Assembly: GCA_029571905.1 (NCBI GenBank)
Contig: JAKPXU010000047.1
Span: forward strand, 1 to 36,796
Reading direction: 5' to 3'
Length of the DNA stretch: 36,796 nucleotides
Source of the DNA: Acidobacteriota bacterium
Lineage (GTDB): Bacteria; Acidobacteriota; Aminicenantia; Aminicenantales; Saccharicenantaceae
The notes under the pieces were generated by a model that saw only the letters and a list, made by a program, of their open reading frames with translations, searched no databases and was not told where the DNA came from. The translations under genes and the position numbers were made by a program. Position 1 is the stretch's first letter. Each line of letters begins with the position of its first letter. Shown here one piece after another: positions 3,677 to 19,271 of the stretch.

Positions 3677-5041
3677 ATGGAACTCGATTTAACCGTTCTC
3701 AAAAAAATGCCTCCCCACAGTCTGGAAGCCGAAAAGACAGTTCTGGGGGGAATTCTGGTTAATAACGCTCACCTTAATATTGTGCTGAGCTCTGTCACAC
3801 CGGAAGATTTCTATAAAGAAAACCACCGGTTGATTCTGGAAACTATGATCAGTCTCATGGATAAAGGTCAGCCCATAGATCTGCTAACCCTGAGTGAAGA
3901 GCTGCAAAAGGCTGGCCACCTGGAAGAGGTGGGAGGTTCTTCCTATCTGGCTTCGCTGCTGGATGGAGTCCCACGAAGCTTGAATATCAGCTACCATGCT
4001 CAAATTATTAAAGAAAAATCCCTGCTGAGAAAGCTTATTCTCTCTTCATCCAAGATTATTAACGACTCTTATGAACAACAGGTTGATCCGGACACACTTA
4101 TCAGCGAAGCCCAACAGGCTATCGTCGAAATTGCTGAAGAGAAAATCAGACCAGGTTTTATTCCGCTCGCCTCGTTAACCGGTCCAATGCTGGAGACCAT
4201 CCGGCAATTGGTTGACCGGAAAGAAGCGGTAACCGGCGTGCCATCTGGATTTGTCGATCTGGATAACCTGACGGCTGGTTTTCATCCCTCAGAATTTATT
4301 GTGGTCGCTGCTCGTCCCTCGATGGGCAAGACGGCTCTATCCCTGAACATGACTCAATACATTGGTCTTCAGACTGATTATCATGCTGGGTTTTTTTCTA
4401 TAGAAATGTCAAAAGAACAGGTGGTCTTGCGTCTGCTATGTGCTGAGGCTAAGGTCGATTTGAAGAAAGCCAGATCAGGCTTTATCAGTGACAGGGAATT
4501 TGAGCGGCTGCGTCTGGCTGGCGAGACTCTATCTCAGGCCAGGATCTACATTGATGAGTCGCCAGCCCTGACCGTGATGGAGATGAAAGCCAAGTGTCGG
4601 CGGTTAAAACTGGAAGGCCATCTGGATATTGTATTTGTTGATTATATACAGCTGATGAGGACAGGCGGCCGATTTGAAAATCGCAATCAGGAAATGTCCT
4701 TTATTTCCAGATCACTTAAAGAGCTGGCCAAGGAACTTCAGATACCGGTAGTGGGGATTTCCCAGCTGAGCCGGGCGCCAGAAAAAATGAGAAAAGAACC
4801 AAAACCAGTTCTATCCGATCTCCGCGAATCGGGAGCCATTGAACAGGATGCGGACGTAGTCATCTTTATTTATCGCCCTGATTATTACCACCCCGATGAT
4901 GAGGCTCTCAAAGGTCTGGCTGAAATCAGTGTGGCCAAGCAAAGAAATGGTCCGCTGGGAGTTGTCCCTCTGGTCTTTTTGAGAGAATACGCCAAGTTTG
5001 TTAATATGGATTATGCGTATCGAGCAGAAGATGAAAGTTGA
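3677..5041 (+). CDS. dnaB: Replicative DNA helicase DnaB
   Basis: Hexameric 5'-3' helicase that unwinds the chromosomal replication fork and recruits primase. The N-terminal domain opens with PPHSLEAEKTVLGGIL (about 12-27). The RecA-like ATPase has Walker A in ARPSMGKTAL (about 212-221), Walker B in IVFVDYIQLM (about 318-327), and the late motif LRESGAIEQDADVV (about 383-396). Its 454 residues match intein-free family members. A weak GTAAGG site precedes the ATG. Its position after rpsF-rpsR-rplI is the common bacterial order. The mlaE start lies inside its last codons, so the two are translationally coupled, which is an unusual neighbour for dnaB. Confidence 0.97.
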   Translation: MELDLTVLKKMPPHSLEAEKTVLGGILVNNAHLNIVLSSVTPEDFYKENHRLILETMISLMDKGQPIDLLTLSEELQKAGHLEEVGGSSYLASLLDGVPRSLNISYHAQIIKEKSLLRKLILSSSKIINDSYEQQVDPDTLISEAQQAIVEIAEEKIRPGFIPLASLTGPMLETIRQLVDRKEAVTGVPSGFVDLDNLTAGFHPSEFIVVAARPSMGKTALSLNMTQYIGLQTDYHAGFFSIEMSKEQVVLRLLCAEAKVDLKKARSGFISDREFERLRLAGETLSQARIYIDESPALTVMEMKAKCRRLKLEGHLDIVFVDYIQLMRTGGRFENRNQEMSFISRSLKELAKELQIPVVGISQLSRAPEKMRKEPKPVLSDLRESGAIEQDADVVIFIYRPDYYHPDDEALKGLAEISVAKQRNGPLGVVPLVFLREYAKFVNMDYAYRAEDES

Positions 5042-5846
5042 GTCTATCGAAAAAGAAACTAAGGTGGAAAGTCGATTCCAGACTGGACTCTTGGCGCGGT
5101 TTTTTTCTGGTGTGGCCGAGGTCTTTGAGCTGATTGTCCGGGCAAGTCGAGGCTTATTTCAGAAGCCGTTCGAAAAGGCAAATTTTGTTCAGCAGCTGGA
5201 AGAAGTTGGGGTTAATTCTCTGCCGGTAGTGGCTTTAACGGCGGCTTTTGGCGGGCTGGTTTTTGGCCTCCAATCTTACCTGGCTTTTCACCGCTATATT
5301 GGGCCTGGTTCAGAAGCTCAGGCCGGTTCAATCATAGCGGTTGGCCTTTGTCGAGAATTAATTCCTATTCTGGTTGGTTTAATGGTGGCCGGACGGGTTG
5401 GTTCATCTATGGCGGCTGAGATTGGCACCATGAAAATTACAGAACAAATTGATGCCCTGATCAGCCTGGGGGCCAATCCGGTCAATTATCTGGTTGTGCC
5501 CAGGACTCTGGCCAGTATTATTATGGTCCCGGCCCTGACTGTTTACGGTGATTTTATAGGTATTTTTGGTGGCTATGCTTATAATGTTTTGCTGATGAAT
5601 GTGAACCATACGCTTTATGTTAATACCACCCTGAAGTATTTTGAGATGTGGGATATCTCGGTCGGGGTCATCAAAGCGGTGGTCTTTGGCTTCCTGATTG
5701 CTATTATTGGCTGCTGGCAGGGTCTGAGTACCGAGGGTGGAGCTGAAGGTGTCGGCCGAGCTACGACTAAATCAGTCGTCGTCTCCAGCATCTGCATTTT
5801 GATTATCAATTTTTTCTTAAGCAAAGTTTTGCCGGCGACTCTATGA
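5031..5846 (+). CDS. mlaE: MlaE-type ABC transporter permease (lipid transport)
   Basis: Inner-membrane permease of the MCE/Mla lipid transporter. I chose ATG 5031, which overlaps the dnaB stop by 11 nt; an upstream TTG at 4998 lies deep inside dnaB. The 271 residues contain the family's hallmarks: FVQQLEEVGVNSLPVV (about 54-69), then a hydrophobic region with GLCRELIPILVGLMVAGRVG and SSMAAEIGTMKITEQIDAL, and further membrane segments to the end. About five to six membrane segments are visible. mlaF begins 9 nt downstream and mlaD follows, giving an E-F-D order. Direction of lipid movement cannot be read from sequence. Confidence 0.93.
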   Translation: MKVESIEKETKVESRFQTGLLARFFSGVAEVFELIVRASRGLFQKPFEKANFVQQLEEVGVNSLPVVALTAAFGGLVFGLQSYLAFHRYIGPGSEAQAGSIIAVGLCRELIPILVGLMVAGRVGSSMAAEIGTMKITEQIDALISLGANPVNYLVVPRTLASIIMVPALTVYGDFIGIFGGYAYNVLLMNVNHTLYVNTTLKYFEMWDISVGVIKAVVFGFLIAIIGCWQGLSTEGGAEGVGRATTKSVVVSSICILIINFFLSKVLPATL

Positions 5847-5855
5847 TAGAAGACC

Positions 5856-6608
5856 ATGACCAAGATTAAAATTGACAACCTGTACAAATCCTTTGGCCAG
5901 AAACAGGTCCTTAAAGGGGTTAATCTGGAAGTAGAAGAAGGCGAAATTATGGTCATTATCGGGCAAAGCGGCTCGGGTAAGAGTGTCCTTCTTAAACATA
6001 TTATTGGCATAATGAAGCCGGATGCTGGTGAGATCTATGTTGATGGTCAGGTAATGAACGCTTTCACCGAAAGGGAATTGCTGAAAATGAGCCGCAAGTT
6101 TGGCATGCTTTTTCAGGGATCAGCCCTTTTTGATTCACTGACGGTTGAGGAAAATGTGGCCTTTGGCCTCAGGCGGCATACCACGCTTTCCGACGAGGAG
6201 ATAAAAAAGGTCGTACGGGCCAGTTTAGAGAGAGTTGGCCTGCGAGACATTGAGCATTTGCTGCCTTATGAACTATCAGGTGGGATGAAAAAAAGAGTTG
6301 GACTGGCCAGAGCTATTGCCTATGGACCGGAAATTATTCTCTATGATGAGCCGACCACCGGCCTTGATCCAATTAGATCTGACGCCATCAATAATTTGAT
6401 CTTGCAATTAAAAAGAGATCTGAACGTGACCTCTATCGTCATTACTCATGACATGAATAGCACTTATAAAGTGGCCGACCGGATTGCCATGCTGTATGAA
6501 GGTCGGATTATTGAAGTTGGTAGCACCGAAGAAATTAGAAATTCGCCCAATCCGATAGTCCAGCAATTTATCAACGGTCGGGCGACTGGACCAATAGCTG
6601 AATGGTGA
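5856..6608 (+). CDS. mlaF: MlaF-type ABC transporter ATPase (lipid transport)
   Basis: Cytoplasmic ATPase energising the MlaE/MlaD complex. Its 250 residues carry all ABC motifs: Walker A GQSGSGKS (36-43), Q-loop in MLFQGSALFDSLTV (84-97), signature LSGGM (140-144), Walker B ILYDEP (161-166) with TTGLDP as D-loop, and the switch His in VITHDM. SGGMKKRVGLARAI is typical of the Mkl/MlaF subgroup. It lies between mlaE and mlaD at 9-10 nt spacing. The regulatory STAS protein MlaB is not encoded nearby. Confidence 0.94.
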   Translation: MTKIKIDNLYKSFGQKQVLKGVNLEVEEGEIMVIIGQSGSGKSVLLKHIIGIMKPDAGEIYVDGQVMNAFTERELLKMSRKFGMLFQGSALFDSLTVEENVAFGLRRHTTLSDEEIKKVVRASLERVGLRDIEHLLPYELSGGMKKRVGLARAIAYGPEIILYDEPTTGLDPIRSDAINNLILQLKRDLNVTSIVITHDMNSTYKVADRIAMLYEGRIIEVGSTEEIRNSPNPIVQQFINGRATGPIAEW

Positions 6609-6618
6609 GGAGCTAATT

Positions 6619-7932
6619 ATGACAACAAATAGAGAAATAAAAATTGGTATCTTTGTCACCGGGTTGTTACTCCTGCTGGCCCTGGCCATCATTTTCATTG
6701 GTGATATAGGGGGTTTATTTAAGAAACAGGGTTATGAGGTTTATGCCCTCTTTGACTCGGCTCTGGGGCTGGAAAATAAAGCTTCAGTTAAACTGGCTGG
6801 AATAAAAATCGGTGAGGTCAAGGATATTACTCTGTCCGGACGTCGAGCAAAAGTCGGCATGATGATTTATCCTGAGCATCAGATTCCACGCGGCTCAAGG
6901 GCAACTCTGTCTTCTCTTGGTATTCTGGGAGAAAAATATGTGGAGATCGTTCCTGGCCAGGAAGAGACCTTTTATCAGAGCGGAGAAGTTATGGAATCGC
7001 TGCCTCCTATCAGTTTTGACCAGCTGGGTACACTATTCATGTCAATGGGCGAGGACCTCAAAAAAATCAGCAGTTCGGTCAATAAAATTATCACGCCAGA
7101 ACTGGGCAAGAATATCAGTCAGACTATCGAGCATCTGGCTAAACTGAGCGCCGAACTCGATTCTCTGGTTCAAGAAAATAAGGCTTCACTCCATCAAACG
7201 CTCGCTGGCTCAGCCCGCACCGTTGATAATCTTAATCTTCATCTAGAAGCAATTTCTGAAGACATCAAGGAGACTCTACATGAAATTCAGAGCCTGGTCG
7301 GAGATAATAAAGTAGCTGTTGAGGAAAATCTGGAACAGTTAAAAGAAGATCTGACCACTCTGGGTAAAACTTTACAAAGCCTGAATGAGACGCTGGAAAA
7401 AGTAAATAAAGGGCAGGGCACGGTTGGTAAGCTGGTTAACGATCCTTCTCTTTATGAGGAAACAAAAAGCACCTTGCAGGAGGTGCAGAAAATTACTTCG
7501 GGCTTTTCGCCTCTTAAGGCAGGGGTAGGTCTAGAAGGCAGCTATTATGGTGAGAGTGATCTTTTTAAGGGTTCTCTATATGGCAGCTTGACCTGGAAAA
7601 ACAGAGCTTTTTTATCGGCCGGTCTGATCAATGATCCCTTCCGGGACAAATTTGTTTATTCACTGCAGGGAGGCTATAAAACCGGTCCTCTGGCCCTGCG
7701 GGCCGGATTGATAGAATCTTATTTTGGAGCAGGAATGGATCTTTATCTCTTTAATAACAGGCTGAATATAGGAGCGGAGGGCTTTAATTTTAATCGCGAT
7801 CCCCGGCCTCAGTTTCGGGTTTTTGGCCGTCTTTATCCGGTTAAAAATATCTATCTGGTAGTTGGTTTGGATGATTTTACTCTGGCTGAGCGACGAGAGC
7901 TTTATTTTGGTCTGGGATTTGAGTTTAAATGA
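6619..7932 (+). CDS. mlaD: MlaD-type MCE protein with C-terminal barrel-like domain
   Basis: Substrate-binding partner of MlaEF. At 437 residues it is far longer than E. coli MlaD (about 183). In order: a short cytoplasmic start, one membrane helix (about 10-29), an MCE domain (about 38-116) with LGLENKASVKLAGIKIGEV and ATLSSLGILGEKYVEI, a long helical region (about 130-295), the motif GQGTVGKLVNDPSLYEE (265-281), and a last 139 residues of alternating polar and hydrophobic stretches rich in Gly, Tyr and Phe. These look like roughly ten beta strands and end FGLGFEFK, resembling an outer-membrane barrel. Long MlaD proteins with fused barrels, proposed to bridge both membranes, are known from diderm Firmicutes such as Veillonella. 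The barrel call here is inference from residue pattern. Its stop overlaps the radA ATG (ATGA). Confidence 0.9.
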   Translation: MTTNREIKIGIFVTGLLLLLALAIIFIGDIGGLFKKQGYEVYALFDSALGLENKASVKLAGIKIGEVKDITLSGRRAKVGMMIYPEHQIPRGSRATLSSLGILGEKYVEIVPGQEETFYQSGEVMESLPPISFDQLGTLFMSMGEDLKKISSSVNKIITPELGKNISQTIEHLAKLSAELDSLVQENKASLHQTLAGSARTVDNLNLHLEAISEDIKETLHEIQSLVGDNKVAVEENLEQLKEDLTTLGKTLQSLNETLEKVNKGQGTVGKLVNDPSLYEETKSTLQEVQKITSGFSPLKAGVGLEGSYYGESDLFKGSLYGSLTWKNRAFLSAGLINDPFRDKFVYSLQGGYKTGPLALRAGLIESYFGAGMDLYLFNNRLNIGAEGFNFNRDPRPQFRVFGRLYPVKNIYLVVGLDDFTLAERRELYFGLGFEFK

Positions 7933-9284
7933 AAAAAAGAACTTTTTTTGCCTGTCAGAACTGCGGCTTTCGTTCGCCTAAGTGGCTGGGGCGCTGCCCG
8001 GAGTGCGGCCAATATTCCACCATGGTGGAGGAAATAGAAGAGGAAACTCTGAGCGAAGAGGAAAGCGGCAGCAGCCAGCCGCTGCTCTATGGTGAAATAA
8101 AGCCAGCCAATAATCAGAGAATTCCAATCGGTATCGAGCAATTCAATAATGTTTTGGGTGGTGGGTTAGTCCTTGGTTCGGTCGTTTTGATTGGCGGCGA
8201 ACCGGGGATTGGCAAATCAACCCTGCTCCTTCAGGTCTCACGTGATCTGGCGGCTGGCGGGCAGCCAGTTCTGTATGTTTCAGGAGAGGAATCGCTGGAA
8301 CAAATCAAACTCCGCGGGGAACGATTGAGGCTTAAAGACGAAAAAGTCTATCTTCTGGCAGAGACCAACCTGGAAAGGATTATTAATGCCGCTGACCAGA
8401 TGAAGCCCAGATCGCTCACTATTGATTCTGTGCAGACTATTTATTCTCCCCATCTGACTTCCAGCCCGGGAACGATCAGCCAGGTCAGGGAAGTTACGAA
8501 CCGCCTCTTCCGTCTGGCCAAAAAGAATCAAATCCCTGTCTTTTTAATCGGTCATATTACCAAAGATGGGACGCTGGCCGGGCCCAAATCTCTCGAGCAT
8601 ATGGTGGATGTAGTTCTGCTGTTTGAAGGTGAAAGAGATCACAGTCATCGAGTGCTGAGGGCGATGAAAAACCGTTTTGGACCGGTTTCAGAACTGGCCA
8701 TTTTTGAAATGAGCCAGTCCGGTCTCCGGGCTATTGATAATCCTTCAGCTTTCTTTTTAAAAGAAAGGCCTCAAAACGAACCAGGCAGTGTTATTGTTAC
8801 CACTATCAAAGGGTCTAGACCTCTTTTAGTTGAAATCCAGGCCCTGGTCTCTTCGACCATCTTTGTGGGCAATCCCAGGCGGATGTCTATTGGCCTTGAT
8901 CATTATCGCGTAGCCATGCTTCTGGCTCTGACTGAGAAAAAGATTGGCTATAGTTTTGCTGGTGAGGACATTTACCTCAACGTGGCTGGAGGCTTAAGCC
9001 TCGATGAGCCGGCCGCTGACCTGGGAGTGGTACTGGCCGTAATTTCCTCAGTAAAAAATATAGCCTTGCCGAGGGAATTAGCCGTGTTCGGTGAGGTTGG
9101 CTTAAGCGGTGAAATCAGATCAGTCAATCAGCCAGCGGCCAGAATCAGAGAAGCCAGATCAATGGGGTTTGAGCTGGTCATGATGCCAGCTGGCAATCTC
9201 CAGCAGCTTGAAGATGAAAATCAGCCAGGCATAAAATGTCTGGGCGTCAGCTCTGTTCGACAGGCCCTGGCCAGAGTCTTCTAA
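7929..9284 (+). CDS. radA: DNA repair protein RadA
   Basis: RecA-related ATPase that helps process branched recombination intermediates. Its 451 residues show a C4 zinc finger (Cys9, Cys12, Cys23, Cys26), Walker A GGEPGIGKST (89-98), the RadA-specific KNRFG (247-251), and a C-terminal Lon-like domain with LDEPAADLGVVLAVISS. Start overlaps the mlaD stop by 4 nt. In Firmicutes radA is followed by disA, yacL, ispD and ispF. Here the order is radA, PIN/TRAM gene, ispF, so disA and ispD are missing from the usual position. Confidence 0.96.
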   Translation: MKKRTFFACQNCGFRSPKWLGRCPECGQYSTMVEEIEEETLSEEESGSSQPLLYGEIKPANNQRIPIGIEQFNNVLGGGLVLGSVVLIGGEPGIGKSTLLLQVSRDLAAGGQPVLYVSGEESLEQIKLRGERLRLKDEKVYLLAETNLERIINAADQMKPRSLTIDSVQTIYSPHLTSSPGTISQVREVTNRLFRLAKKNQIPVFLIGHITKDGTLAGPKSLEHMVDVVLLFEGERDHSHRVLRAMKNRFGPVSELAIFEMSQSGLRAIDNPSAFFLKERPQNEPGSVIVTTIKGSRPLLVEIQALVSSTIFVGNPRRMSIGLDHYRVAMLLALTEKKIGYSFAGEDIYLNVAGGLSLDEPAADLGVVLAVISSVKNIALPRELAVFGEVGLSGEIRSVNQPAARIREARSMGFELVMMPAGNLQQLEDENQPGIKCLGVSSVRQALARVF

Positions 9285-13880: not shown

Positions 13881-13891
13881 GTCAATCAGCT
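13875..13891. terminator. Palindrome spanning the convergent gdh and pstB stops
   Basis: AGCTGA (13875-13880) and TCAGCT (13886-13891) form a perfect 6-bp stem with a 5-nt loop. It contains both the gdh stop (TGA at 13878-13880) and the pstB stop (13886-13888 on the minus strand). On the minus strand it is followed by TTTCTTAAAAT, so it could act as a weak terminator for the phosphate operon; on the plus strand the T-run is poor. Confidence 0.4.
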
Positions 13892-14647
13892 GATTTCGCC
13901 CGTGATGTAGGCCCGGGTTCTGGGATCCTGAGGAGCAGTCAGGACTTCAGAAGCCGGGCCGAATTCTATTAGCTCTCCCATATAAAGAAAGGCGACATAG
14001 TCAGCCAGGCGCTTGGCCTGCCGAAGAATATGAGTGACCACAACAATTGCATAATTTTTTTTCAAACTCTGCAGCTGGGCTTCAACGTTGCGGCTTGACT
14101 GAGGATCAAGGGCTGAAGTTGGTTCATCACCCAGGATAATTTCCGGCTCAACAGCCAGTCCCCGGGCTAAACAGAGCCGCTGCTGCTGGCCGATGGACAA
14201 CCGGCTGGCCGGCTCATTTAAACGGTCCTGGACTTCCTCCCAGAGCCCGGCCAGTTTTAAGTATTTTTCTACAAGCCGGTTGAGTTCGGATTTTTTTAAG
14301 GAACGGTGGAGTTTAAGGCCAAAGGCTATATTGTCATAAATCGACATGGGTAAAACCTGCGGCTTCTGAGATAGCAAGCCCATTTTTTTTCTGATCTGAG
14401 TGACATCAACATCACGGCCATAGATGTTCTGATTATCGAGCAGAATCTGTCCTTCCACCCTGGCTTCCTCTACCTCATCGAGCAAACGGTTAAGACTCTT
14501 TAGCAAAGTGGACTTGCCACAGCCAGAAGGTCCGATGATTACCGTTAGACTTTTATCAGGAATGTTAAGGCTGATATTTTTCAAGACCTGATTCTGGCCA
14601 TAATAAACACTGACATTTTTAAGAATTAATCGTCCGTTATCAACCAT
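13886..14647 (-). CDS. pstB: Phosphate ABC transporter ATP-binding protein
   Basis: ATPase driving phosphate import through PstC/PstA. Its 253 residues have Walker A GPSGCGKST (39-47), the PstB-like Q-loop region LLSQKPQVLPMSIYDNIAFG (91-110), Walker B ILGDEP with TSALDP, and an H-loop VVTHILRQAKR. The ABC signature reads LSIGQ (150-154) where PstB normally has LSGGQ. The Gly-to-Ile change sits beside the nucleotide in the dimer, and the rest of the protein looks intact. AGGAGAAAG precedes the ATG. Last gene of the operon, 25 nt after pstA. No phoU follows, which is unusual for a pst operon. Confidence 0.9.
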   Translation of the reverse strand: MVDNGRLILKNVSVYYGQNQVLKNISLNIPDKSLTVIIGPSGCGKSTLLKSLNRLLDEVEEARVEGQILLDNQNIYGRDVDVTQIRKKMGLLSQKPQVLPMSIYDNIAFGLKLHRSLKKSELNRLVEKYLKLAGLWEEVQDRLNEPASRLSIGQQQRLCLARGLAVEPEIILGDEPTSALDPQSSRNVEAQLQSLKKNYAIVVVTHILRQAKRLADYVAFLYMGELIEFGPASEVLTAPQDPRTRAYITGEIS

Positions 14648-14672
14648 AACTTTCTCCTGTGTTGCTCATTTA

Positions 14673-15557
14673 CTACCTGACCTTGTGCCGGCTCAATTTC
14701 CGCCCAAAGTATCTGGTCAAGAGGCTGATGATCAGAATGAGCAGCGTCAGTATAGCAGCTGAGGCGAAAGCTCGTTCCTGAACTTCGGGAAAAGGAGAAT
14801 TAAGCTGGAAAAAAATGGCCAGTGGCAAAGTAGCGACTGGTTGAAATAATGAGGTTGTTATCCGATCAGTGTAACCAGCCGTAAAGAGTACTGAGGCTCC
14901 ATCCCCGAGGCCACGCCCCAGGGCAATGAGGATCGAGGTGATTAAACCGGGCAAAGCCTGCCTTAAGACAACTCTGGTGGATGTTTGCCAGCGATTGCCT
15001 CCCAGGGCATAGCTGGCCTCTTTAAGTTCAGCTGGAACCAGTCTGATTGTTTCATCCAGGGCCCGGCTCAAAATGGGCAGCTCTACCAGAGCGATAGTGA
15101 TCATGCCGGCCAGAAGAGAGGCCCGCAGGTGAAGCATGAGCATTAACAAAAAACCGAAAACTCCATAAACTATAGATGGGATCCCCCAGAGTACATCGAG
15201 GCTAAGTCTAATCACTTCGGCCAGGAAGGATTTCCTTTTGAGATAGGTATTAAGGTAGATAACTGTGGGGAGAGCAATGACCAGTGCAATTAAAGTGGCT
15301 CCTAAAGAAACTTCAAGCGACCCGACAATAGCATTGAGAATGCCACCTTTTTTGCCAAGGTAATAACCTGTGCCGGGCGTCTGGAGGATCATCGATAATT
15401 TCAAAGCGGGCAGGCTTTTCCATAGAATCGTAACCAGAATAATAGAAAGTATAATTGCAACGAGAATGATTGAGGCCAGCAGGATTAATTTGAAACCCGC
15501 TTCCGCCCGATGTCTTCTCCTCAGGCGGCGGTCAGTGCTTTTCTGGCGACTGCCCAT
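14673..15557 (-). CDS. pstA: Phosphate ABC transporter permease PstA
   Basis: Inner-membrane permease paired with PstC. The 294-residue protein has about six membrane segments after a basic N-terminus, and the family motif region WGIPSIVYGVFGFLLML. The transport-domain loop includes ELKEASYALGGNRWQTSTRV, the EAA-like coupling motif that contacts the ATPase. The ATG at 15557 overlaps the pstC stop by one base (TGATG); a TTG one codon earlier is less likely. Its specificity for phosphate is supported by the pst context rather than by residues I can name. Confidence 0.92.
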   Translation of the reverse strand: MGSRQKSTDRRLRRRHRAEAGFKLILLASIILVAIILSIILVTILWKSLPALKLSMILQTPGTGYYLGKKGGILNAIVGSLEVSLGATLIALVIALPTVIYLNTYLKRKSFLAEVIRLSLDVLWGIPSIVYGVFGFLLMLMLHLRASLLAGMITIALVELPILSRALDETIRLVPAELKEASYALGGNRWQTSTRVVLRQALPGLITSILIALGRGLGDGASVLFTAGYTDRITTSLFQPVATLPLAIFFQLNSPFPEVQERAFASAAILTLLILIISLLTRYFGRKLSRHKVR

Positions 15558-16435
15558 CAATCTATCCTCTGTTCTAATTTATTTAAATACAAGCGAGCGG
15601 CCAGGCTGAAAATGATCACCATAAAAAGGAGAACGACGGCGGCCAGATTAAGAGCGGCTTCATAGCCGGGGATGGATAACATCTCTCCATAATTATTAGC
15701 CAGCAAAGCTGGCAGCGGGTAGGCAGGTGAAAAAAGCGAAGTCGGAGTGAGAGGCACATTACCAACCACCATCATGACGGCCAGGGTTTCACCGAAAGCT
15801 CGAGATAGGCCGAGAACACAGGCAGCAGCCACTCCTGGTCTGGATTTTTTTAAGACTATGAAACGAACCACTTCCAGGCGAGTAGCGCCCAGCGCCAGAG
15901 CAGCTTCTTTGAGGTCAGCCGGTACGGCGCTAAGGACTTCGACTGAAACGTTGACAATAGTTGGTAAGATCATTACTGCCAGGACAATCCCGGCTGTCAG
16001 AATACAATAGCCGGAACTGTAAGTTCCGAAAAGAGGAGCCAGATACTTTCCTACCAGCGGCACGATCAACAAAATACCCCACATACCATAGATGACAGAA
16101 GGTAATCCAGCCAGCAGATCAATGACTGGCACCAGCCATTTTTTCAATCGGCCAGAGGCATAATCGGAAATATAGATAGCAGTCAGAATAGACAGAGGAG
16201 CAGCCAGGATAAAGGCAGTGATAGTCACCCAGATAGTACCGAGGATAAATGGCCAGAGGCCAAATTGCCCCTTCTGTGGTTGCCAGGCTGAGGAAAAAAG
16301 AATGGTGGGCAAGGATTTTAAGGACAGGAGAGGAAAAGCCTTGGTCAGCAGCAGAAGGAAAATGCTGATGGCCAGAATGATGGGGAGAAGAGAGAATAGG
16401 CCGGCCACAAGCTCCTTACCTTTTTCTTTTTTCAC
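15554..16435 (-). CDS. pstC: Phosphate ABC transporter permease PstC
   Basis: First permease of the phosphate importer; the final codon ends at about 15557. The 292 residues begin at a GTG (16435). There are about six membrane segments, with DLLAGLPSVIYGMWGILLIV typical of PstC and the cytoplasmic coupling loop DLKEAALALGATRLEVVRF. The upstream GGGAG lies rather far from the GTG, so the ribosome site is weak. It follows pstS by 24 nt and is coupled to pstA by stop/start overlap. Confidence 0.92.
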
Positions 16436-16459
16436 TTATCTAAGCCGCTCCCTGGTCTT

Positions 16460-17485
16460 TTAGTTTTCCAAAAGTTTCTGTTTTTCTGTTTGAGCCAGAT
16501 TTTGATCGAGGGCCAGATAGCCAGCTTCGGCCGCATACTGTTGCCCCTGGTCGAGAACCCAGAGCAGGAAATCTCTGACCAGAGTCTGCTGAACCGGTTT
16601 CTTGACGACCAGATATAACTTTCGGGCTGGAGGCGAAGGGTACAATCCTCTGGAAATAGCCAGAGTTAGCTCATCACGCTGGCCATAGAAATTCTCCTCA
16701 GAGGTCAGCTGGCCGTTGCCATCAAGATCAAGTGGACCGATGGCCAGTCCAGGATGAGGTCTTCCCGTCTCTGGATGATAGGCAAAGTTCAGATTGTTGA
16801 AACCGAGTCCGGTCGGATCCTGGCGTACAGCCTCGGCCAGGCCCGGATCACCATAAATGGCTATGCCCTTCAGATCTTCCTGATGGCCTCCCAGAAAGGC
16901 CGCCCAGGTTTCAGCCGCTCCACAGGCATCGGAACGGGTGTAAAGATGAATAGGGGTTTTGCCTGGCTGTCCATAAATTTCTTCCCAGAACTTAATCCGG
17001 CCCTCTATCCAGATTGCCCGGAAAATTTCTCGATTCAGTCCTCTTGCCTGAATGAGTTTCAGGATGGGATTTCTGGTATTTAATGTAGCTACAACGGCAT
17101 CCCTGGCAACAGCCAGTGGTAAAGCTCCCTTCTCTATTTCTTCTGGAAAAATTTCTCGGGAAATCATGCCTATATCGACCAGACCGGAGAGAACATCGGC
17201 CATTCCTTTACCAGCACCGCCGGCCTGGAGATCAATCTTAACCGCCGGATTTTCTTTCTGAAATTCTTCTACCCAGCGAACGGCCAGCGGGTAAAGAGCC
17301 CAGGCACCAGAGATGCTGATCTGACCGGCGAGGCTTTTTGGCTGGCCGAACACTCTCTGCCCTTCTCCCTTGAGGGAAGCAGGCTGTGGGAAAGCAGTAA
17401 AATTAAAAACAAGGTTTAGACATATCATCAGAAAAGAAAAAAATCCGAAGGTGGCAATCATTCTTTCAAAATTGAATTTTTTCAT
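16460..17485 (-). CDS. pstS: Periplasmic phosphate-binding protein PstS
   Basis: Captures phosphate in the periplasm and delivers it to PstCA. I prefer ATG 17485 (MKKFNFERMIATFG) to the ATG at 17509, because AAGAGG lies just upstream of 17485 and nothing resembling a ribosome site precedes 17509. The 341-residue product has a signal peptide of about 35 residues. The mature part has typical phosphate-loop segments: GQISISGAWALYPLAVRW, LQAGGAGKGMADVLSGLVDI and the later TRSDACGAAETWAAFLGG. Length and motifs fit the PstS-like PBP family. It lies between the porin and pstC, consistent with an uptake operon. Confidence 0.9.
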   Translation of the reverse strand: MKKFNFERMIATFGFFSFLMICLNLVFNFTAFPQPASLKGEGQRVFGQPKSLAGQISISGAWALYPLAVRWVEEFQKENPAVKIDLQAGGAGKGMADVLSGLVDIGMISREIFPEEIEKGALPLAVARDAVVATLNTRNPILKLIQARGLNREIFRAIWIEGRIKFWEEIYGQPGKTPIHLYTRSDACGAAETWAAFLGGHQEDLKGIAIYGDPGLAEAVRQDPTGLGFNNLNFAYHPETGRPHPGLAIGPLDLDGNGQLTSEENFYGQRDELTLAISRGLYPSPPARKLYLVVKKPVQQTLVRDFLLWVLDQGQQYAAEAGYLALDQNLAQTEKQKLLEN

Positions 17486-17511
17486 CCTATTCCTCTTATT
17501 TATCTTCATTT

Positions 17512-18534
17512 TTAAAAGCCTAACTGAAGCAGCAAAAGAGCTGCCTGGCGATCTGGTCCACTTGCTGTTTGATGGTATTCATAATTGGCCTGCAGCTTCG
17601 ATTTTTCGGTTAAAAACCAGTTAACACCGGCCGTGTAAATAGTGGTCTTTTGAGCCGGAAGATGCCGGTCAAGGTTAATGGCCTCCAGACGACCGACCAG
17701 CTGCACTTTCTGGCGAAGAAGAGAATAGGTGGCCAGAGTATACCAGCCCTCTTTTTCGGTCCGGTCATCTGTTGCCCGGATAAACTCGGCTTGAAGACCA
17801 AGTCGCTGATAACTGAAGGCCAGCTCCAGGCCGTATCTGTTTCTTCTGATTAAAACTGGACTATCGCTGACTGTTTGCTTTCCATTATAAATAGAGAAGG
17901 CCAAAGACAGAGGCTTCCAGGGGTGAGCTACCAGCCGTCCGGCCAGATCTTTGTGATCATTGGTGTCAGCCTTATTTGCCCCGGAACCATTGAACAGACC
18001 GATGGAATAATCAAAAATCGAATAAGAGCCAAAAATGGCAGCTCCAAGATCGCGACCAGCCGAACCATTATCTCTGCCCGGGGCGAGTTTCTCGACGACC
18101 TGAGAACGGTTAATAGTCAGCAGGTCGGAGGAAGAGGTTATATTTTCCAGGCTGAAAGGCACCAGAAATTGCCCGGCCCTAAGACTTATAACCTGATTCG
18201 GCGTGAATTCCGCCTGGGCGTCCAACAGGACTGGCGACCTGGTAAAATCAACCTGGATTTTAAATTTTAATGTCTTGAGTACCTGTCCACCGAGCGAGAG
18301 GCGGGCCCTTCTGATAGAAAAGGTATCATTGTCTTCACTTTTCCAGGCTGCCTGCAACTGGGCATAACCTGATAGCTTCAGTTGAAGCGAAGACTGAACA
18401 ACCGGAGCTTTTTTATTTTGCTCGTCCTCGTTTAAAAAATCTCTCGCTCTGGAGGCCTGAGCCCGAATAGGAATCATAAGGAGGCCTAAAGTAACTAATA
18501 CAAAGAGTACAGCCGGGTAGATGACCCTCTTCAT
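17512..18534 (-). CDS. Phosphate-selective porin, OprP/OprO family
   Basis: Outer-membrane channel expected to admit phosphate. The 340 residues start with a Sec signal peptide (about 1-27, cleavage after RAQA). The OprP-like segments FSIRRARLSLGGQVLKTLKF, FKIQVDFTRSPVLLDAQAEF and LRAGQFLVPFSLENITSSSD follow, then alternating barrel strands to a terminal LLQLGF ending in Phe. It is shorter than Pseudomonas OprP (about 440). The ATG overlaps the Rrf2 stop (ATGA) and pstS follows, so one mRNA carries outer-membrane entry, periplasmic capture and import. Selectivity for orthophosphate or polyphosphate cannot be told. Confidence 0.85.
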   Translation of the reverse strand: MKRVIYPAVLFVLVTLGLLMIPIRAQASRARDFLNEDEQNKKAPVVQSSLQLKLSGYAQLQAAWKSEDNDTFSIRRARLSLGGQVLKTLKFKIQVDFTRSPVLLDAQAEFTPNQVISLRAGQFLVPFSLENITSSSDLLTINRSQVVEKLAPGRDNGSAGRDLGAAIFGSYSIFDYSIGLFNGSGANKADTNDHKDLAGRLVAHPWKPLSLAFSIYNGKQTVSDSPVLIRRNRYGLELAFSYQRLGLQAEFIRATDDRTEKEGWYTLATYSLLRQKVQLVGRLEAINLDRHLPAQKTTIYTAGVNWFLTEKSKLQANYEYHQTASGPDRQAALLLLQLGF

Positions 18535-18983
18535 TTTTCTTCACTTCCGGCTAATTTTTTCTGATTGATGGCTATTTGCCGGTCCAAAACCTCGGCAAAA
18601 GTGGTTTGCTCTAAATGTCTGGCCACCATATCTCTGACTTCTTTCCAGACGGATCTTAATCCACAATTTTCTTCGAGGGGGCAGGGCTCATGTTCGATCA
18701 CACTGACACAGTTAATCGGAGCCAGAGGGCCGTCCATGACTCTGATCACTTCCGCTACTGTAATCCTGTCCGGTGGCTTTGATAGAAAATAACCGCCATG
18801 GGGGCCTTTTTTGCTTTTGACGTAGCCTGCCCGCCGCAGTGATAAAAGAATCTGCTCCAGAAACTGCTGGGGAATAGCCTGCGCCAGAGAAATAATTCTA
18901 ATTGGCACCGGACCCTCTCCGAAGCGGGCTGATAGTTCCAGCATGGCCCGGCTGGCATATTCACCTCTGGTAGAAAGCTTCAT
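18531..18983 (-). CDS. Rrf2-family transcriptional regulator
   Basis: The 150-residue winged-helix protein begins MKLSTRGEYASRAMLEL, the standard Rrf2 start, and has the recognition-helix region IPQQFLEQILLSLRRAGYV and wing GPHGGYFLSKP. Cys92, Cys101 and Cys107 lie in the loop where IscR has its three Fe-S ligands (92, 98, 104), so it may sense iron-sulphur status, nitric oxide or oxidants. I chose ATG 18983; a GTG one codon earlier is possible, and GGAG lies just upstream. It heads the porin-pst operon, with stop/start overlap to the porin. That suggests control of, or control together with, phosphate uptake, where PhoB would normally be expected. The effector is unknown. Confidence 0.9.
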   Translation of the reverse strand: MKLSTRGEYASRAMLELSARFGEGPVPIRIISLAQAIPQQFLEQILLSLRRAGYVKSKKGPHGGYFLSKPPDRITVAEVIRVMDGPLAPINCVSVIEHEPCPLEENCGLRSVWKEVRDMVARHLEQTTFAEVLDRQIAINQKKLAGSEEK

Positions 18984-19271
18984 CACGCTCCAATATTAGT
19001 TGATTAATATTATCGACTATATCATATATTATGCCTATGGCTGCCTGTCAAGCATTTTTTTGAACTAGTTCGGTTATTTGAGAACAGAACTGTCCTCCTT
19101 TTATGTATTGTTATATATTGAGGCCGCTGCTCTCTTGGCCTGACTCGGGCTACTCTTCTTTTCTTCAGGCTTGCCCTCGAGCTGCGCTTCTGGTCTGGCG
19201 GCGAGCATCTGCACTTTTAATTGAACAAATTTCTAAAATATGACATGATTAAAAAAGTAATGGAGACCAGG
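18984..19271. other. Divergent intergenic region
   Basis: 288 nt separate the Rrf2 regulator (minus) from the DUF1573 gene (plus). The left third holds the Rrf2 promoter and palindrome. On the plus strand, A+T-rich TTATATATTG at 19111-19120 may serve as a -10 for the DUF1573 gene, but I see no matching -35. I see no coding sequence or stable RNA in the rest. Confidence 0.5.
18998..19051 (-). promoter_or_regulatory. Promoter and candidate operator of the Rrf2-pst operon
   Basis: On the minus strand TTGACA (19051-19046) and TATATG (19028-19023) are 17 nt apart, a good sigma-70 arrangement. Directly downstream, an imperfect 21-bp palindrome (18998-19018) has arms AGTTGAT and ATCGACT, matching 6 of 7, around TAATATT. 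It covers the expected transcription start and lies 14 nt before the Rrf2 ATG. Its place and symmetry suggest an autoregulatory site. The half sites resemble but do not match the IscR consensus. Confidence 0.5.

Follow-up and report, generated by a model that had tools for sequence, protein, structure and literature searches.

The genes of a predicted MlaEFD lipid transporter lie side by side on the forward strand of the window, by which we mean the whole 36,796-nucleotide stretch of DNA analysed here. The permease gene mlaE (4998..5846; PF02405, E 5e-77; TIGR00056 above its cut-off), which may in fact begin downstream of the TTG at 4998, is followed by the ATPase gene mlaF (5856..6608; PF00005, E 9e-35), for which the best NCBIfam match was the MlaF model PRK11831 (E 1.5e-63, below the cut-off of that model). 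The third gene, mlaD (6619..7932), is an intact open reading frame of 437 aa. Family matches identified the forward-strand neighbours as dnaB upstream (3677..5041) and radA downstream (7929..9284). Spacing is tight, with 9 bases between mlaE and mlaF, 10 bases between mlaF and mlaD and a 4-base overlap of mlaD and radA, which leaves no room among these four genes for an extra gene such as mlaB. The initial annotation had called MlaE and MlaF ordinary, and had singled out the position next to dnaB and radA. The adjacency is as described, but it is no peculiarity of this genome, since the placement beside radA is conserved across the order: each of the 31 loci that we examined in it had MlaE, MlaF and MlaD together, and in 28 RadA stood beside them, the other three (L002, L012 and L030) being cut by contig ends. 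Elsewhere in the window, on the reverse strand (13886-18986), an ABC set (ATPase, two permeases and a PBP_like_2 binding protein), a Porin_O_P porin and an Rrf2 regulator make up what appears to be an ordinary locus for phosphate uptake.

The MlaD chain opens with a hydrophobic stretch, conserved in an alignment of relatives (A1), that is predicted to anchor the protein in the inner membrane as a transmembrane helix (residues ~10-28; 6646..6702, forward strand, as for all segments of the protein). An MCE (MlaD) domain follows at residues 37-113 (6727..6957; PF02470, E 4.1e-21), and the same bases were matched in a whole-genome search. Pfam places a single MCE domain in the chain, and one MCE protein only was found in the window's genome, an assembly of 1.88 Mb that is 82% complete. 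Beyond the MCE domain lies a long region (residues ~130-295; 7006..7503) predicted to form a periplasm-spanning tunnel helix. Its helical character, proposed from the sequence at the outset, is borne out by the family profile, in which residues 138-295 have a moment of 2.76 at 100 degrees compared with 0.70 at 175 degrees. The remainder of the chain (residues 297-437; 7507..7929) is a domain of ten predicted antiparallel strands, a putative outer-membrane barrel, to which dyad hydrophobicity and hairpin covariation both point. Its last strand (residues 427-437, ELYFGLGFEFK; 7897..7929) resembles a beta-signal, and the motif FFGLGxE is conserved in alignment A1. Full-length relatives in the order, at 435-440 aa, share the same domain plan. 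A full-length MlaD profile matched solved MlaD and MCE structures in the PDB, including 6xbd and 8fed, and the protein scored 90.5 against TIGR04430, for which the cut-off is 135. The initial annotation thus described the 437-residue protein with its membrane helix and MCE domain correctly. Its further claim, of a C-terminal barrel-like domain ending in Phe, agrees with the strand periodicity and with a domain start near residue 297, but it is Lys that ends the chain, preceded by Phe.

We examined the strand pattern in a family alignment of 121 sequences (effective number ~80), with couplings calculated on residues 288-437. Ten segments of alternating hydrophobicity were apparent, at residues 297-309, 317-326, 330-338, 345-355, 358-366, 368-378, 382-391, 398-408, 410-420 and 427-436. 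Over residues 297-437, the lag-2 minus lag-1 autocorrelation was equalled by 8 of 5000 shuffles. The hydrophobicity contrast between strand faces was equalled by 22 of 5000, a result that is supporting only because the same data had served to define the strands, their boundaries having been taken from the alignment under test. Covariation, a more independent test, points the same way. Among the top 60 pseudolikelihood pairs at separations of 4-28 residues, 30 lay within a distance of three from the diagonals of the nine consecutive hairpins, where 15 were expected; the in-register pair count was greatest near zero topology shift and stood at 5-13 at shifts of at least 6 in either direction, and each of the nine hairpins was represented by two or more of the 100 strongest pseudolikelihood pairs. 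Mutual information with APC correction (MI-APC) put 31 of 60 pairs in register, compared with 8-20 in 15 column-permuted alignments. Mean-field couplings, and a ladder filter applied to the pseudolikelihood couplings, did not discriminate the topology. Because the covariation fits nine hairpins in register, we consider that these data support a ten-stranded antiparallel meander.

Whether such a meander closes and enters a membrane is a separate matter. A contact between strands 1 and 10 was not prominent among the couplings, and AlphaFold2 without a usable alignment was uninformative: residues 285-437 alone (single sequence) gave a pLDDT of 33, and the full MlaD with one relative (two sequences) a pLDDT of 36, with even the known MCE domain unfolded. 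Barrel closure and outer-membrane insertion are therefore put forward here as predictions. Weak apolipoprotein and coiled-coil matches to MlaD, seen with Pfam and PDB profiles, reflect the helical repeat. The C-terminal domain could instead be a soluble periplasmic beta-sheet that caps the tunnel and binds to the outer membrane, or to another barrel, but does not insert, and several observations would suit it: closure was not seen in the couplings, the lipid-facing hydrophobicity of strands 3, 5, 7 and 9 is weak, the C-terminal residue is Lys and not aromatic, and no barrel was among the matches listed when the domain was compared with Pfam and solved structures. We nevertheless regard a soluble sheet as improbable, given the regular alternation in an even number of strands (ten) joined by tight turns, the likeness of the last strand to a beta-signal, and a plan shared with the MlaD of Veillonella parvula, the barrel of which, when isolated, is found in the outer-membrane fraction (PMC10665443).

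A search profile made from the last 153 residues of MlaD matched 68 of 94 genomes of the order and, in a sample of 297 genomes from the phylum, 89. Wherever a retrieved locus scored against the MlaD profile, its C-terminal domain was fused to MCE. Matches fell in long frames, except for a few that were truncated at contig ends; in G031 and G020 the domain was confined to a frame at the edge of a contig. No relatives were found in viral contigs.

We then considered the partners on which Mla systems may depend. Neither MlaA (PF04333) nor MlaC (PF05494) was found in any of 40 genomes, comprising that of the window (82% complete) and 39 relatives, 27 of which are at least 90% complete, and the E. 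coli and Caulobacter controls were positive. The lack of mlaA and mlaC that the initial annotation had reported for the window thus extends to the genome, and the idea that either gene lies elsewhere in it is unsupported. TamB and Omp85 proteins were present in all 40 genomes. As a separate observation, single chains of 2117-2446 aa join TamB to Omp85 at three loci (L154:1314-7667, L173:3071-9508 and L174:2238-9578, all on the reverse strand), in the order AsmA/DUF748-like N-terminus, TamB domain, POTRA domains and a C-terminal, TamA-like Omp85 barrel. Most genomes of the genus have frames of about this length that match TamB as well as Omp85, in addition to a TamB-Omp85 pair encoded separately, and text searches of three TAM papers found no mention of such a single-chain fusion.

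The closest parallel to this arrangement is the MlaD of V. parvula, a protein of 419 aa with a TM helix, an MCE domain, a helical region of ~150 residues and a ten-stranded barrel (Grasekamp et al., 2023; PMC10665443). Fractionation supports its presence in both membranes, its isolated barrel goes with the outer membrane, and there is no MlaA or MlaC (PMC10665443). Our protein is similar in size (437 vs. 419 aa) and in domain plan, the likeness being one of plan and by description, and both systems consist of MlaE, MlaF and MlaD only, lack MlaA and MlaC and occur with TamB. They differ in lineage, which is Acidobacteriota here, and in setting, since the present locus lies between dnaB and radA whereas that of V. 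parvula is next to tolC and tamB. Given the ten strands, the hairpin covariation, the absence of MlaA and MlaC from all 40 genomes and the plan shared with V. parvula, a barrel-fused transenvelope system free of MlaA and MlaC is the best-supported reading of the sequence data. Much of the bridge proposed in the initial annotation stands on the same grounds; what does not stand is its tie to the diderm Firmicutes, as the host belongs to an Acidobacteriota lineage, probably Aminicenantia, and the closest relative, 91% identical, is labelled Acidobacteriota. The suggestion that the locus extends the known architecture also adds little, because barrel-fused MlaD was already published in 2023, when a barrel was inferred for 103 sequences, with a wide spread among diderm Terrabacteria and further cases in some Proteobacteria and close phyla (PMC10665443).

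We consider it likely that the product of mlaEFD is a transenvelope lipid transporter with three components, of the kind described from Veillonella. As predicted, MlaF (the ATPase) and MlaE (the permease) would power from the inner membrane an assembly of MlaD, probably a hexamer, that is anchored in the inner membrane by its N-terminal helices and forms an MCE ring. The helical tunnel would span the periplasm: taken as continuous, at 1.5 A per residue, its ~165 residues would reach ~25 nm, an estimate close to the 24.2 nm measured for the periplasm of V. parvula (PMC10665443). At the far end, MlaD would be secured in the outer membrane by the ten-stranded barrel at its own C-terminus and, bridging the envelope in this way, would not need MlaC or MlaA. 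A lipid, most likely a phospholipid, would travel along the hydrophobic tunnel, probably from the outer to the inner membrane; for both substrate and direction we lean on what is known from another organism.

The barrel itself may be only an outer-membrane anchor or a lateral gate, with lipid entering between MlaD subunits below the membrane and at no point crossing a barrel. A ten-stranded barrel has been stated, for V. parvula, to be too narrow for a phospholipid, and most long MlaD proteins have no barrel (PMC10665443). Relatives examined here offer a similar picture, as the genomes of genera g2, g4 and g5 that we read use a different, shorter and barrel-less MlaD in an mlaEFD cassette of its own (L097, L098, L099, L100 and L101; 314 and 351 aa in L097 and L098), MlaD similarity in the g2 genome G019 coming from scoring against the MlaD profile. 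In the two loci scanned, one from a g5 and one from a g4 genome, an ABC_trans_aux lipoprotein gene follows, the match in g4 (L098) being below the Pfam cut-off. We give this anchor or gate an even chance, and it is compatible with the transenvelope transporter favoured here.

Comparison with other MCE systems helps to place this transporter. MlaE, MlaF and the MCE part of MlaD are held in common with the E. coli system of MlaFEDB, MlaC and MlaA (6xbd was matched), but E. coli MlaD has 183 aa and neither helix tunnel nor barrel (PMC10665443). E. coli also needs MlaC and MlaA, which are absent here, and no mlaB stands beside the present genes. The locus accordingly falls outside the six-component proteobacterial type, which is recognized by a short MlaD with MlaB, MlaC and MlaA. 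In PqiABC, too, an MCE protein forms a helical tunnel through the periplasm, but PqiB has several MCE domains and works with a separate lipoprotein, PqiC, whereas the present MlaD has one MCE domain and its outer-membrane end is fused. The PqiB tunnel has been described (PMC10665443). Two genomes of the same order, from g4 and g5, have an ABC_trans_aux lipoprotein gene behind a barrel-less MlaD.

The genus of the window, g1 (19 genomes, G000-G018), differs from V. parvula, which makes LPS, in a further respect: lpxA, lpxB and lpxC, which serve the synthesis of lipid A, the anchor of LPS, were not found. LpxC (PF03331) was absent from 19 of 19 g1 genomes and from the 3 g4 genomes tested, and present in 18 of 18 other relatives. 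LpxB was missing from all 19 g1 and all 13 g4 genomes and present in 61 of 62 others, and the C-terminal domain of LpxA (PF13720) was likewise missing from both groups (0/19 and 0/13) and present in 60 of 62 others. The bamA locus, read in 20 genomes (L146-L152 and L158-L170), gave the same result. Nine of the ten genomes outside g1 and g4 carry bamA-ompH-fabZ followed by lpxA, lpxI and an oxidoreductase gene, the stretch fetched from the tenth (G025) holding bamA only. These three genes after fabZ are missing from 7 of 7 g1 loci (G000, G003, G005, G006, G010, G017 and G018) and 3 of 3 g4 loci (G021, G022 and G023), in all of which the sequence continues past fabZ. In the remaining 12 g1 and 10 g4 genomes, absence rests on the family searches. 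Poor assembly is an unlikely cause, because all 19 g1 genomes lack the lpx genes and ten loci run past fabZ without them. A tree of BamA grouped g1 with g4 weakly (68), so one or two losses are possible. The loss covers the genes of lipid A synthesis and not every surface glycolipid: an LptD-like protein (PF04453), mostly ~700-760 aa and often a weak match, was found in 17 of 19 g1 genomes, the window's own genome (G000) and G013 giving no match. Since this protein is kept in most of g1, export of an unusual glycolipid may persist.

Most bacteria that lost LPS have also lost Mla, which fits a role in LPS asymmetry (PMC10665443). Genus g1 is an apparent exception. The C-terminal domain of MlaD was matched in all 19 of its genomes (partially in G001, at a contig end), and dN/dS, calculated for 14 within-genus pairs, was 0.025-0.13 for the barrel part and 0.021-0.095 for the TM and MCE part. 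MlaD in g1 is under strong purifying selection, barrel included. Genus g4 had the C-terminal domain in none of its 13 genomes. That g1 lost its lipid A genes and yet retains barrel-fused MlaD under purifying selection is what is new here, the architecture itself having been published before. Because lpxA, lpxB and lpxC were not found, it is unlikely that MlaEFD in this genus keeps lipid-A-based LPS outside; a service to general phospholipid balance, or to asymmetry against another surface lipid, is more likely.

A system that outlasts the loss of lipid A genes might also serve another end. Some MCE systems import fatty acids and cholesterol, and MlaEFD could, as mycobacterial Mce does, import external hydrophobic nutrients and have no part in phospholipid homeostasis. 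In profile searches the helical part of MlaD matched Mce1 chains, and Mce4_CUP1 weakly, and the chains of mycobacterial Mce1 and Mce4 are likewise long, MlaD-like and partly helical (8fed). However, the place beside radA is conserved, the neighbours are housekeeping genes, no catabolic gene having been identified among them, and most of the genomes searched in the order have only one copy of the system. We therefore think nutrient import unlikely, and retain a phospholipid transporter as the preferred reading. In architecture, mycobacterial Mce differs in being a heterohexamer with no ten-stranded domain per chain, every chain contributing a single strand to a small barrel (PMC10665443).

Tentatively, and with more doubt than confidence, we suggest that the barrel-MlaD bridge was kept for an LPS-independent function, opposite a second bridge of the same genomes, the single-chain TamB-POTRA-Omp85 fusion, so that lipid traffic in both directions would pass through polypeptides that each bear an outer-membrane barrel of their own. 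The two genera amount to a natural experiment within one family, in which g1 has no lipid A genes and keeps barrel-fused MlaD, and g4 is without both. Given the published link between loss of Mla and loss of LPS, this pair makes the purpose of Mla, with or without LPS, open to test.
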